A stretch of DNA of 34,130 bases from Phyllobacteriaceae bacterium. Its GTDB lineage: Bacteria > Pseudomonadota > Alphaproteobacteria > Rhizobiales > Rhizobiaceae. Within the stretch, counting starts at the first letter, position 1. Each line of letters begins with the position of its first letter. The notes beneath the pieces are model-generated. The model did no database searches. It was given only the letters and a program-made list of their open reading frames with translations, and was not told the origin of the DNA. Both the position numbers and the translations under genes were made by a program. The stretch lies in contig JAJUHJ010000024.1 of assembly GCA_029279965.1 (NCBI GenBank), positions 1 to 34,130 on the forward strand. Direction: 5' to 3'. This document shows positions 28,457 through 33,285 of this stretch, piece by piece.

Positions 28457-31400
28457 CTACTGCGCGTTCTCGTTCGCTTCCAGAAGAGCGCTCACCAGCG
28501 CGTCATTGATCTCCCCGGTTTCGGTCATCTCGTTCGCTGCCTGGAAAGCGCGAATTGCAGAGCGTGTCTTCTCGCCCAGAACGCCGTCAGCCGGTCCCGC
28601 ATCGAAGCCGTTCTGGTTGAGGATCAGCTGAATGTTCCTGACGGCCTTTGCGGTGTCGACGCTGCCTGTGGTGATCGCCGCGCCTCCCATCCATGTCTCG
28701 GGAATATCGACCACATTGGTTTCCGGATGAGCCTGGCGCGCCTTCCACAGCTTGGCCCTGCCTCTCGCATTGGCCAGATCGGCGGGGGCCATGATCTGGG
28801 CGATTTCGTCACGCTTGGCGGCGGCGTCCTCGTCGCCGGCTCGGGCGACGATGTCGAACCACTTGTAGGCTTCAACAAGATCGCGGGAAACGCCGACACC
28901 CTTGGCCGAGAGAATGCCGAGATTGAACTGACTGTCGGTAACTCCAAGCTGCGCGGCCTTCTTGAACCAGCGTGCCGCGGTCTCGTTGTCGGCGACACCG
29001 TCCGCCCCCATTGCATAAAGCACGCCGAGATTGTGCATGGCGCTGGCGTTGCCCTGCTCCGCCGCAAGCTGATACCACATCTTCGCCTTCTCGATGTCCT
29101 GCTCTACGCCCGTTCCCTTCTCGTAGAGATTGCCGATCCGGTATTGCGCCGGGGCCAGCCCCTGTTCGGCTGCCAATTCATAGAACTTTGCCGCTTTGGC
29201 CATATCGGCATCGACACCGTAACCCCGCGCGTAGCGACTCGCGACCTCGTAAAGCGCCTTGGAAGCGCCATCCGCCGCGGCTTTGCGAAGAGGTTCGGGG
29301 CCAATTTCATTGGGAACATCCGGTATGCTGGTCCTGGCGGGCTCAAGCGCCGATGGTGCTGCCGCCGGCTCGTCGGGCACCGCAGGTGTGGGGGCCTGCG
29401 AGGGAAGCACGGCTTCCTTGCCCGGGGAGAGAGAGGCCGGCGTCTCCTTCTCCGTGGGAGTCACTGAGGCCGACGCTGCTATGGGCTGTGCAGCGGTGGA
29501 TGCTGTGGTGGAACGATCGAGCGTGGCTTCCTGTGCCGTGTGCATTGCATCGCCGGGCTGCTCTTCCCGCGCAGAGGCGCTGGCGTGGGAGCCCGTGTCC
29601 TCAGGTTCAATCGCGGCCTCGCCCATGTCGGACGTCGCACGTTCTTCCTGTGCCGGACCATCCGCCCGAACGGTCTGCCGTGATGCGCGTTCCTCCAGCA
29701 TCCACCAGGCAAGCGGGAGGCTGCCTGCGACGATGATGACGGCTGTAAGCGAGAGGAGCTTTCTACGATGCCGTGAAATGACCCTCCCCAACGCGGATCT
29801 CCCGCCCTTCTCGCCATGGTCGGCGCGCCGGTCCTTGAGGATTTCGGCTTCCGCGGCGGCGGCCTGGGCCGCACGCCTGGCCGCGGCAATGAAATCGGCC
29901 CTTGCCGCCTCGTCACTCGCCTGCTCCCGCATGCTGCGCTCATCCCGCACACGGCGCATGATGGCGTTGAGATCAGGCGCCCCGGAGCCCGGCTCCAGCG
30001 GTTCGTTCAAGCGTTCGTCCGCAAACGCCTCGTCCTCGTCCACCTGCCCTGCCGCCAACAGAGGTTCTTCGCGCCCCGCTTCTTCCGCTTCCGAAGCACG
30101 CCGCCCGGACAAAGCCCGCGAAAGCCCGCCCAGCACGGTCCGTCTTTCCGGCTGCCCGGATGCATCCGGATCATCGTCCATCAGCGCGGCTTCAGCCGCC
30201 GCGGCTGCCGCTTCCGCGGGCGTCAGCCGGGGCGAGGGTTCGGCATGATCGAGAGAAGGTGTCTGGCTGACGGCGATCCTTTCACCATCGGGGTCTGCCC
30301 CTGCCTCAAGCACGCCAAGTCGATCGACGATCTTGAGGAGGGTGTCGTGAATGGCCTCGAAGGTCTTGGTGTTGCGCTCGTCCGACTTGCGCGTCAGCGA
30401 ATGGAGTTTCTCGATTTCCTCCTTCAGCCTGCCATCGGTGGTTTCTCCCGCCGATGTTGTAAGCTTTTCGACGGCTTCCTCCGCAGCCTGACGTGCCGTC
30501 TCCAGGATGGCAGCGCGGCTCTCATCTATGGAACGCTCAATATTATCGAGCCGCGGGGCAATCTCCGCAGCTCCTTCATGGCCAGGCGCAGCAAGACGGG
30601 CAGCAAGGTTTGCCACCTGCGCCTCCAGGCTGCGGAACACCTCGGGATCAACGTGCGGGCTCTCCGGGATGGCATTTTGCAGCCGACCGGAGATGTCTTC
30701 CAGCCGTTCCTCCAGGGATCGCAAGGCCGACGTGTTTCCGGACCGCTCGATGCGCGCGGCAAGCTCTGCGAATCGGTCCTCCATCGCGCTCATGATCCCG
30801 GATTCACCGTAACCCGCACTCTGGCGGTCGAGCCGCTCGGCCACTTCCTCCAGACGCCGCTCCAGATCCTGGAACAGGGCCTGTCCATGCAGGATCGCGT
30901 CCTCCTGTCTGCGCTCAACGAGTTCTGAGAGACGAGCGAAGCGGCTATCGAAGCCTTGGAAAAGAAGGTCTGTCTCCTGTTGCGCCGGAGCGGTATCGAT
31001 TCGCTCCGAGATGCGGGAAAGATGGCCAGCCAGGCGGCTGACCACCTGCTCCGGGACCTCGATGCGACGGGCAACCTCCTCGACCCGCTCCGACAGCCCG
31101 TTGAGGCGTTCGACGATCATGCCCCCAGGCTGGTCCTGCACCACCTCGTCGAGCTGCTTTGCGAGCGAGCTGATGCGTGCCTCGATGCGGTCGAGCACGG
31201 AGTTGTCGAAGCTTGGGGCATGTGCGCGGGCCGCCGACGCGGCGATGGCGCGGGAGATCTCGTCAAGCCGCTCTTCAACCGTCGTGTAAAGGTCCGGCTG
31301 ATTGCGGTCGCCGCGAACGGCAAATTGTTCGAGCGCCTTGGCGAGCGTGCGAACCCTTTCTTCCAGAGAACGCAGGGAAAGCGATTCTGGCAGATTATGA

Positions 31401-32065
31401 ACGGCCGTACTGATCTCCTCCAGCCGCGCGGCGAGACGATTTATGGCAGGGTCGGACGTACCGAGCTGGAAACGGCTCTGGAAACCTTCCCAGCGTTCGT
31501 CCAACGCCTGCACGGACTCCTCGCGCGCCAGATTGGCAAGTGATCCCTTAAGCTGCGAAAGTTCCCGTTGCAGCATTTTGATGCTGCCTTCGTCGGTACG
31601 TTCGGAAAGCTGAGAAATCGCCTCGGAGAGGTTCTGGAATTCTGCCCTGAGGCGATCATCCAGTGCGTCCGACTGGCTGGCCGGTGCAAACCGCGCGAGT
31701 TCTTCGCGCAGCGTGACGAATTCACGGCGTATGCCTGCCTCCAGGGCGGCCTGCATATCTTCGCGCATTGTCCGCAGTTCGCCAGCAATGTTGACGCCGT
31801 TCGCAAACCGCTCTCCCCGCTGCAGCGACAGGCTATCACCTGCACCGGATTGAGACATCGCGCGCCGCTCACCGGCCTGGGTCGAAAGGCGCTCCATTCG
31901 CCGGGCGATATCGTCCTCGTTCGTTTGGCGCTCCCGGCGCGCGAACGCCTGCTCCAGACGACTTTCCAATTGCTCAAGCGTCTGGTTGATTTCATCGAGC
32001 GCAGTACCGGCCCTGCGCTGCCGCCCCGTGTTCAGATTATCCAGATATGACCGCGTGGTGTTCAT
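28457..32065 (-). CDS. podJ: PodJ-like polarity protein (coiled coil, TM, Sel1 repeats, PG-binding)
   Basis: The 1202-residue product has the layout of PodJ, a cell-pole organiser of alphaproteobacteria. Residues about 10-560 are mainly coiled coil in heptads (ALDEINQTLEQLESRLEQAF and many like LEERLEDISGRL). A charged linker follows, with a single membrane segment near 766-786 (LLSLTAVIIVAGSLPLAWWM). The periplasmic part has a Pro/Ala/Thr-rich stretch, four Sel1-like repeats at about 928-1092 (FYELAAEQGLAPAQYRIGNLY and similar) and a peptidoglycan-binding domain at 1138-1198 (IQLILNQNGFDAGPADGVLG). The ATG at 32065 is preferred to 32188, which would add a basic unrelated leader. A convincing ribosome-binding site is not seen. 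Confidence 0.88.
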   Translation of the reverse strand: MNTTRSYLDNLNTGRQRRAGTALDEINQTLEQLESRLEQAFARRERQTNEDDIARRMERLSTQAGERRAMSQSGAGDSLSLQRGERFANGVNIAGELRTMREDMQAALEAGIRREFVTLREELARFAPASQSDALDDRLRAEFQNLSEAISQLSERTDEGSIKMLQRELSQLKGSLANLAREESVQALDERWEGFQSRFQLGTSDPAINRLAARLEEISTAVHNLPESLSLRSLEERVRTLAKALEQFAVRGDRNQPDLYTTVEERLDEISRAIAASAARAHAPSFDNSVLDRIEARISSLAKQLDEVVQDQPGGMIVERLNGLSERVEEVARRIEVPEQVVSRLAGHLSRISERIDTAPAQQETDLLFQGFDSRFARLSELVERRQEDAILHGQALFQDLERRLEEVAERLDRQSAGYGESGIMSAMEDRFAELAARIERSGNTSALRSLEERLEDISGRLQNAIPESPHVDPEVFRSLEAQVANLAARLAAPGHEGAAEIAPRLDNIERSIDESRAAILETARQAAEEAVEKLTTSAGETTDGRLKEEIEKLHSLTRKSDERNTKTFEAIHDTLLKIVDRLGVLEAGADPDGERIAVSQTPSLDHAEPSPRLTPAEAAAAAAEAALMDDDPDASGQPERRTVLGGLSRALSGRRASEAEEAGREEPLLAAGQVDEDEAFADERLNEPLEPGSGAPDLNAIMRRVRDERSMREQASDEAARADFIAAARRAAQAAAAEAEILKDRRADHGEKGGRSALGRVISRHRRKLLSLTAVIIVAGSLPLAWWMLEERASRQTVRADGPAQEERATSDMGEAAIEPEDTGSHASASAREEQPGDAMHTAQEATLDRSTTASTAAQPIAASASVTPTEKETPASLSPGKEAVLPSQAPTPAVPDEPAAAPSALEPARTSIPDVPNEIGPEPLRKAAADGASKALYEVASRYARGYGVDADMAKAAKFYELAAEQGLAPAQYRIGNLYEKGTGVEQDIEKAKMWYQLAAEQGNASAMHNLGVLYAMGADGVADNETAARWFKKAAQLGVTDSQFNLGILSAKGVGVSRDLVEAYKWFDIVARAGDEDAAAKRDEIAQIMAPADLANARGRAKLWKARQAHPETNVVDIPETWMGGAAITTGSVDTAKAVRNIQLILNQNGFDAGPADGVLGEKTRSAIRAFQAANEMTETGEINDALVSALLEANENAQ

Positions 32066-32415
32066 CGAAATGCCCGCTTCTCCGCGGCTGACCGGACGCC
32101 GCGATTTAAGTTTTTGGCGTGGGGCGTGTGGACCGGCAAACGCATGACGCCGCGTCCGGCCTGGCCATTCCCCCTCGACCCGGAACACCGAAACACGAGA
32201 AGCAATTCACGCGGGCGTTCCAACGCCCTAACTTTCTCCCCGCGTGGTAAACAACAGGTTAAGCTTTCTTTGGAAATTGGATCGAAGGTCCATCAGGAAC
32301 AGGGAGGCAGTGCCTGGGCGGGCTGAGGCCAGCCGCTTGCGGCATAGCTGGTTTTCCGGCGCGAGGGGCGCGGATACGAGCCGCATATCACCCGCTTTTC
32401 CTACCCGCAAACCTT
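32066..32415. other. Intergenic region upstream of podJ and hsp20, no clear content
   Basis: This is the divergent gap between the PodJ-like gene and the hsp20 promoter. No gene and no strong promoter motif is evident by eye. It should contain the PodJ-like promoter on the minus strand. Confidence 0.4.
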
Positions 32416-32444
32416 CTTGAAGTTCCCAACAAAACCAACCATAT
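32416..32444 (+). promoter_or_regulatory. Candidate heat-shock (RpoH) promoter of hsp20
   Basis: CTTGAA at 32416-32421 is followed after 17 bases by CCATAT at 32439-32444, resembling heat-shock promoters recognised by sigma-32. Transcription would begin near 32450, right before the first stem-loop of the RNA thermometer. The -10 match is partial. Confidence 0.45.
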
Positions 32445-32452
32445 CAGGGCTA

Positions 32453-32510
32453 CCGGCAAAAATGCCTTTGGGGTTTTTGCCGGGTCACGTCGCTCTTTGA
32501 GGACAGAAAC
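32453..32510 (+). promoter_or_regulatory. ROSE-type RNA thermometer in the hsp20 leader
   Basis: Two hairpins are visible. The first has a perfect 10-bp stem, CCGGCAAAAA (32453-32462) with TTTTTGCCGG (32474-32483). The second pairs GTC-CTC (32489-32491, 32493-32495) with GAGGAC (32499-32504) around a TTT loop, leaving G32492 bulged. This matches the ROSE rule: a UYGCU segment (here TCGCT, 32490-32494 region) pairing with the AGGA ribosome-binding site with one unpaired G. AGGA at 32500-32503 is 7 bases from the ATG. ROSE elements melt at heat shock and free the site. Confidence 0.8.
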
Positions 32511-32936
32511 ATGACGCGTATGACGCCCTTTTCGAACCCGCTTCTTTTGGGGTTCGACAGTATGGAGAAGACGCTCGAACGCATCGCGAAATCGGGTGAC
32601 AGCTACCCGCCATACAACATTGAACGAATGCGCGATGACGAGGGTTGCACGGAACGGCTACGCATCACATTGGCTGTGGCCGGCTTTGCCGAACAGGACC
32701 TGGATGTCACCATCGAGGAAAACCAGCTCGTGGTGCGGGGACGGCAAAATGACGAGGGAGAACGCGAATACCTACATCGCGGCATCGCCTCGCGCCAATT
32801 CCAGCGCATCTTCGTTCTCGCTGACGGAATGCGGGTTCTCGGCGCCGAGCTCAAGAACGGGCTTTTGGCGATCGATCTGGACCGGCCCGAGCCGGAACGG
32901 CTGGTACGTAAAATCAACATATCGGTGAAAGAATGA
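32511..32936 (+). CDS. Small heat-shock protein, Hsp20 family
   Basis: The 141-residue product is an ATP-independent chaperone that holds unfolding proteins. An N-terminal arm (PFSNPLLLGFDSMEKTLERI) is followed by YPPYNIER and an alpha-crystallin domain at residues 36-132 (LRITLAVAGFAEQDLDVTIEENQLVVRGRQ, then FQRIFVLADGMRVLGAELKNGLLAIDL). The length and the IbpA-like N-terminus are typical of rhizobial class A proteins. The ATG is fixed by the ribosome-binding site in the thermometer. Expression is probably controlled at two levels, heat-shock promoter and RNA melting. A DUF1150 gene follows on the same strand. Confidence 0.92.
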   Translation: MTRMTPFSNPLLLGFDSMEKTLERIAKSGDSYPPYNIERMRDDEGCTERLRITLAVAGFAEQDLDVTIEENQLVVRGRQNDEGEREYLHRGIASRQFQRIFVLADGMRVLGAELKNGLLAIDLDRPEPERLVRKINISVKE

Positions 32937-33027: not shown

Positions 33028-33285
33028 ATGACCCAGAACGAACACAAGACCACGGTGACCCCACAGCAGCTTGCCCATATCGGCGAGGGAGCAATCGCCT
33101 ATATGCGCGAAATGGACGTTGCTGACCTGAAGGGCAAATTCCCGGGCATGCCCGAGATGGAACCCGGTACGAAACTCTGGGCGCTTTTCGCTGCCGACGG
33201 CCAGCCCATTCTGCTCGCCGACGCCCGTGATGCGGCCCTCGCCGGCGCATTGCAGAACGACCTGCAGCCGGTAAGCCTACACTGA
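33028..33285 (+). CDS. DUF1150 family protein
   Basis: The 85-residue soluble protein follows the Hsp20 gene after 91 bases. It reads TPQQLAHIGEGAIAYMREMD near residues 11-30 and ends in TKLWALFAADGQPILLADARDAALAGAL, the conserved DUF1150 pattern. These proteins are common beside small heat-shock genes in rhizobia; the function is unknown. The ATG at 33028 has AGGAGGC 5-6 bases upstream. Cotranscription with hsp20 is likely. Confidence 0.9.
   Translation: MTQNEHKTTVTPQQLAHIGEGAIAYMREMDVADLKGKFPGMPEMEPGTKLWALFAADGQPILLADARDAALAGALQNDLQPVSLH

Follow-up and report, generated by a model that had tools for sequence, protein, structure and literature searches.

A candidate short two-hairpin ROSE-like RNA thermometer upstream of hsp20 in a Phyllobacteriaceae bacterium

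The hsp20 locus and its promoter

The window, i.e. the whole stretch of 34,130 nucleotides that was analysed, is a contig (C24) of the 3.26 Mb genome of a Phyllobacteriaceae bacterium. The hsp20 gene on its forward strand (32511-32936) encodes an IbpA-type small heat-shock protein of 141 amino acids, which was recognized by Pfam PF00011 with 61.7 bits and is 48% identical with E. coli IbpA in an alignment; the NCBIfam IbpA model gave 105 bits, which is under its cut-off of 212. The nearest named homologues belong to Chelativorans (89-90% identity). The next gene on the same strand (33028-33285) encodes a protein of the DUF1150/BQ00720 family (PF06620, 97.5 bits; NF052376, 112.5 bits) and, judged by its position alone, is possibly co-transcribed or co-expressed with hsp20. 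A protein of 1243 amino acids, whose start was taken as predicted mechanically, is encoded divergently on the reverse strand (28457-32188) and carries four Sel1 repeats and a C-terminal peptidoglycan-binding domain.

The region upstream of hsp20 consists, in the 5' to 3' direction, of a promoter (32416-32444), hairpin I (32453-32483), hairpin II (32489-32504) and the ATG at 32511. The promoter is composed of CTTGAA (32416-32421), a 17-nt spacer and CCATAT (32439-32444), and we take it to be a heat-shock promoter of the sigma-32/RpoH type. The heat-shock-like promoter that the original prediction had placed just upstream of the hairpins was thus found again, and exactly the same promoter is present at 78 of the 80 named homologous loci (the best 80 of 169 relatives). 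Exact CTTGAA-N15..19-CCATAT sequences occur only three times in the genome, the window site included; the other two lie at C88:9595-9623 and C151:3958-3986. Judging from the promoter, the leader with both hairpins would be the 5' untranslated region of hsp20.

Conservation of the two hairpins

For the comparative analysis, 110 leaders were collected from the window, the 80 named loci and 29 further loci, many of them from the same genomes. They represent 91 distinct leaders, 78 of which were aligned after 7 long and 6 divergent ones had been left out.

Hairpin II, the presumed thermosensor, is formed by GTC (32489-32491) and CTC (32493-32495), separated by the unpaired G32492, a TTT loop and GAGGAC (32499-32504). 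The ROSE motif UCGCU (32490-32494) with the bulged G32492 thus lies opposite the ribosome-binding site AGGA (32500-32503), which is situated 7 nt upstream of the ATG; AGGR was found in all 91 leaders. The stem over AGGA with a single unpaired G had been proposed before, and both the coordinates and the fold of the leader agree with it. The leader alone folds into hairpins I and II with -24.8 kcal/mol (z -3.55; none of 200 shuffles as low). The strength of this fold comes from hairpin I; the 41 bases around hairpin II gave only z -0.24, and 75 of 200 shuffles folded at least as stably. A 6-bp helix to GAGGAC with one bulge arose in 5129 of 20000 dinucleotide shuffles if G-U pairs were allowed, in 162 of 20000 if only Watson-Crick pairs were accepted and in 27 of 20000 if the latter helix also had to carry a bulged G at the diagnostic place. 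In a single sequence, hairpin II is therefore weak evidence and not rare by chance.

Conservation, in contrast, is strong evidence and raises hairpin II above chance. The motif YGCY..AGGR is present in 91/91 distinct leaders and the longer form GTCGCT..AGGRC in 90/91, while GUCGCU opposite the ribosome-binding site, including the bulged G, is invariant in the 78 aligned leaders. Four of the six pairs of hairpin II never vary and cannot covary; these invariant pairs thus provide little information on pairing. The exception is the inner pair, which is C-G in 61, U-A in 14 and U-G in 3 leaders. In 29 other genomes with an hsp20 match, YYGCT..AGGR was found upstream of the gene in 20 and was absent in 9.

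Hairpin I carries most of the covariation. Standard pairs filled 95.0% of the pair cells of the 78 leaders, and two-sided changes numbered 150 as compared with 49.1 in shuffled alignments (0/500 shuffles as high). They are located mainly in hairpin I, in which 8 of 11 helix pairs change on both sides and G-U pairs are kept. In the window, the outer stem is formed by CCGGCAAAAA (32453-32462) and TTTTTGCCGG (32474-32483); all 10 pairs form, so that the perfect 10-bp hairpin described ahead of the sensor stem is indeed there. Inside this stem, the pair U32463-G32473 is followed by the unpaired G32464, and C32465-C32466 pair with two bases among G32470-G32472.

This second unpaired G, which the original prediction did not mention, is part of a motif Y(G)CY/RGG (32463-32473) of the same form as hairpin II. 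In the register of the family, G32464 is bulged. The window has one extra, fourth G, and in the best ViennaRNA fold C32465 pairs with G32471 and C32466 with G32470, because of which the unpaired G32464 faces G32472 as a one-by-one mismatch. The alignment columns 20-22 (GCC) and 30-32 (GGG) are invariant in 78/78 leaders, and the Y-G pair beneath the unpaired G is U-G in 42 and C-G in 36 of them. The letters of the tip are thus fixed except for Y, whereas the outer stem varies. RNAalifold left the G unpaired in both hairpins (79 leaders), and in single folds at 25 degrees the G of hairpin I was unpaired in 76/78 leaders. A tip of the form GCC/GGU, with no bulged G, was the choice of RNAalifold on the held-out alignment A4, but was rejected, as single folds of the 78 leaders favoured it in only 2 and the bulged-G register in 58. 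A conserved start codon within hairpin I (AUGCC) was considered and rejected as well, since C replaces U in 36/78 leaders.

Some homologous leaders differ in length. In L075 and L076 (region upstream of position 1501), about 55-60 extra nt separate hairpins I and II, L068 has a shorter insert, and the loop of hairpin I is enlarged in L078, L082 and L083; the first and last hairpins are kept while the middle grows.

A match to the Rfam ROSE covariance models had been expected, and its lack had been named as evidence against a ROSE element. In this respect the expectation failed: neither the window nor the leader alone showed any match to a ROSE model, so that by the gathering score the element does not belong to RF00435, RF01832 or RF02523; the leader alone produced just three sub-threshold matches, all weak and to families unrelated to ROSE, and 18 homologous loci showed no match to the ROSE models at E 5 or less. 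This is probably a false negative that reflects a limit of the models, because another leader of the same genome (C10; L001 1304-1380), which has both ROSE hairpins and precedes a third hsp20 gene, scores just 21.8 of the 43 bits needed for ROSE_3. A classical ROSE element (52.8 bits) lies at C127:218-319 (L003) before yet another hsp20 gene, so that three forms of ROSE-like hsp20 leaders coexist in this genome. In 150 genomes of the order, RF00435 found matches in 11 and RF02523 in 1 at E 0.001; at its own cut-off, the latter found none.

Two covariance models were built from the leaders, R1 with the window included and R2 from 62 leaders with the window and its genus left out. R1 gave 66.4 bits for the window and 15.7 for the next site. 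The held-out R2 still assigned 55.1 bits to the window, the next of the scored genome sites reaching 11.2, which strengthens the ROSE-like reading a little. At E 0.01, R1 matched 36 of 199 genomes of the order and 14 of 190 genomes of the class, the window's own counted in both cases; an hsp20 frame started right after the match at 17 of 29 loci in the order and at 1 of 14 in the class. All 11 examined matches of at least 26 bits elsewhere lead directly into an hsp20 frame (one of these matches lies at a contig end), and many of the matches below 26 bits look like chance. Without filters, R1 did not find the classical ROSE element of C127 at E 10 and gave the C10 leader a mere 10.2 bits, on hairpin I; it thus recognizes neither of the two paralogue leaders. 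The three forms in this genome have therefore diverged. In Hyphomicrobiales, the public RNA models thus miss a set of hsp20 leaders of the short ROSE-like type.

Access to the ribosome-binding site and the proposed mechanism

The leader unites a conserved structure, motif, promoter and gene context. It has the pairing of U(U/C)GCU with the ribosome-binding site, the unpaired G and a further 5' hairpin before a small heat-shock protein gene that characterize ROSE-like elements. By analogy with these, we interpret it as a short two-hairpin ROSE-like RNA thermometer, to which we assign a probability of roughly 0.88. The minimal two-hairpin form suggested at the outset is favoured by the conserved motif, the covariation, the promoter, the gene context, the held-out model and the classical ROSE element before another hsp20 gene of the genome.

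The hsp20 mRNA would be transcribed by a heat-shock sigma factor, as the promoter suggests. At growth temperature, hairpin II would pair UCGCU with AGGA, a structure to which both conservation and folding point, and would presumably block the ribosome. The bulged G is expected to weaken the helix, so that heat shock would open hairpin II and translation would start, as in proven ROSE elements. Hairpin I is a stable and conserved module on the 5' side, for which melting is not expected; it probably aids folding, stabilizes the RNA or serves as a contact site by means of its unpaired G.

The predicted cost of opening AGGA in the window leader is 5.1, 4.05 and 3.51 kcal/mol at 25, 37 and 42 degrees, respectively, close to the 5.17, 4.37 and 3.88 kcal/mol calculated for a 60-nt part of the ibpA leader of E. 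coli. Removing G32492 in silico raised the cost from 5.1 to 9.41 at 25 degrees; the C10 leader has a low predicted cost of 1.93 at the same temperature. ViennaRNA predicted almost no melting of the window leader up to 50 degrees, and the E. coli ibpA control likewise remained unmelted.

The claim that AGGA is hidden at low temperature holds for the leader alone, in which it is paired. With 30 coding bases added and the RNA starting at 32445-32447, however, AGGA is predicted to be open (0.89 unpaired at 25 degrees for a start at 32446), and with a start at 32449 or later its opening would cost about 1 kcal/mol at 37 degrees. A free AGGA at low temperature had been named as evidence against a ROSE element, and in calculation it thus occurs in part. 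An alternative fold, in which CGUCG pairs with UGACG at the start codon, is then the best or nearly so, and these model calculations make it a real uncertainty for this species. A leader of this kind would have two states, CGUCG swapping between AGGA and the start codon, and control would act by pairing of the AUG and not of the ribosome-binding site only. We regard this as improbable, although for some RNA starts the calculation with 30 coding bases yields it as the most stable structure, and its five pairs can form in 37/91 leaders, to which the window and all named Chelativorans loci except L006 (9 of 10) belong. The C before GUCG and the G at the third base of codon 2 occur together in 36/91 leaders, which may reflect either pairing or shared descent. 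The fold is impossible in the other 54/91 leaders, which keep the hairpin II motif regardless, and codon 2 varies among Thr, Ser and Asn codons. With the fifth base after CCATAT taken as the RNA start, the unpaired proportion of AGGA predicted for 25 degrees is below 0.3 in 67/91 leaders without coding sequence, in 46/91 with 15 and in 63/91 with 30 coding bases; in the last case AGGA is mostly paired, with a median of 0.20 unpaired.

Control by the heat-shock promoter alone, with hairpins that merely shield the 5' end of the mRNA, has a still smaller chance of being correct. The nearly universal presence of the exact promoter at the named loci would fit it, and a stabilizing role of hairpin I has been suggested in a study on Pseudomonas (Krajewski 2013, PMC3669281), but the invariant GUCGCU facing the ribosome-binding site in all aligned leaders would be left unexplained. 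Least credible is a role of hairpin I as a palindromic DNA operator, to which a repressor would bind, and not as an RNA hairpin. A perfect 10-bp inverted repeat near a promoter might suggest an operator, but an operator would keep its letters, whereas the arms of hairpin I change in a compensatory manner.

The unpaired G of hairpin I and the known ROSE systems

We searched other leaders for Y(G)CY/RGG within a stem having at least 4 of 5 outer pairs. The motif was found in 76 of the 91 leaders (1.46 in shuffles) and in 17 of 19 further leaders (1.34 in shuffles), 16 of these 17 being outside the window's family; 20 further leaders had hairpin II, one of which could not be cut out. It was also present in 9 of the 12 classical ROSE matches examined out of 13 listed (0.84 in shuffles), although the ROSE model itself favours the motif. 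Other bulged bases appeared at most once in each set. Within this genome, the structural search detected the motif in the C10 leader and not in the classical ROSE element of C127. A set of 70 IbpA-type leaders from the whole phylum (30 best matches and 40 chosen by hand, an uneven sample with some genomes repeated) contained hairpin II in 34 of 39 non-alphaproteobacterial and 30 of 31 alphaproteobacterial leaders. Among those with hairpin II, the motif occurred in 23/34 and 22/30, respectively, whereas shuffles gave 0.92 and 2.18 and no other bulged base exceeded 3; the 11 and 8 leaders without it represent whole groups of related genomes. The 5' hairpin of E. coli ibpA passes the same test. 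The Rfam consensus structures of RF00435 and RF02523 draw an unpaired G in hairpin I, and the feature is therefore visible in the public models; we found no description of it in the accessible parts of the open-licence papers to which our literature search was limited.

We tentatively propose, at somewhat less than even odds, that ROSE thermometers consist of two copies of one module, Y(G)CY/RGG in the 5' hairpin and again over the ribosome-binding site, and that throughout the proteobacteria the 5' copy has been preserved because of its shape and not as a ribosome-binding site, marking a second functional site. The question of the tip register lowers the odds a little. If the proposal were true, the site in hairpin I might, for example, dock a self-repressing Hsp20 or the ribosome, or take part in a tertiary contact by which the melting point of hairpin II is adjusted. 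In E. coli, IbpA is reported to repress its own mRNA through R93, and K98 is also needed (PMC10474464). The residues equivalent to Y34, R93 (R95 in the window protein) and R97 are kept in 80/80 homologues, again the best 80 of 169 relatives. At the position of K98, none of these 80 homologues has Lys or Arg, the window protein has Ile, and the C10 and C127 paralogues have Arg. Self-repression of Hsp20 through hairpin I was not adopted, since K98 is not kept, and remains an idea.

Like the window element, the E. coli ibpA leader (RF01832, ROSE_2) has UCGCU over the ribosome-binding site and a similar opening cost; it differs by an extra hairpin between the first and the last one, and the RF01832 model begins downstream of the 5' hairpin. 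The classical rhizobial ROSE element (RF00435) resembles the window element in the form of its first and last hairpins, with the unpaired G at the same place of hairpin I, whereas the middle part is missing from the window element, which also gives no match to the model. ROSE_3 (RF02523) has two hairpins and a consensus hairpin I, ugCGgGAUGCCGAAgUCGGGUCcCGca, with the same unpaired G, but the model misses the window element. In the same order, the class A small heat-shock protein genes mll2387, mll3033, mlr3192 and mll9627 of Mesorhizobium loti are reported to have ROSE elements (PMC3989490). This comparison is by description alone; the window gene may have its counterpart among these four, and the element of that counterpart would then already be in print.

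The short ROSE-like thermometers of Pseudomonas ibpA belong to another lineage and have been proven by experiment, whereas the window element was recognized by computation alone. They share with it the two hairpins in a leader of 61-62 nt, a hairpin II in which U(U/C)GCU faces the ribosome-binding site, the small heat-shock protein gene and the heat-shock promoter (Krajewski 2013, PMC3669281). Deletion of the bulged G in ROSE elements blocks or lowers heat induction according to three studies (PMC3669281; PMC11342760; PMC4288164). In Pseudomonas, hairpin I remained unmelted, hairpin II alone still conferred heat control and disruption of hairpin I caused derepression; in B. japonicum the response became weaker after the loss of the first three hairpins (PMC3669281). 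The conserved G of hairpin I thus calls for a different role. What the ROSE 5' hairpins do was called not fully understood in the study on Pseudomonas (Krajewski 2013, PMC3669281), and the unpaired-G motif of hairpin I offers a handle on it.
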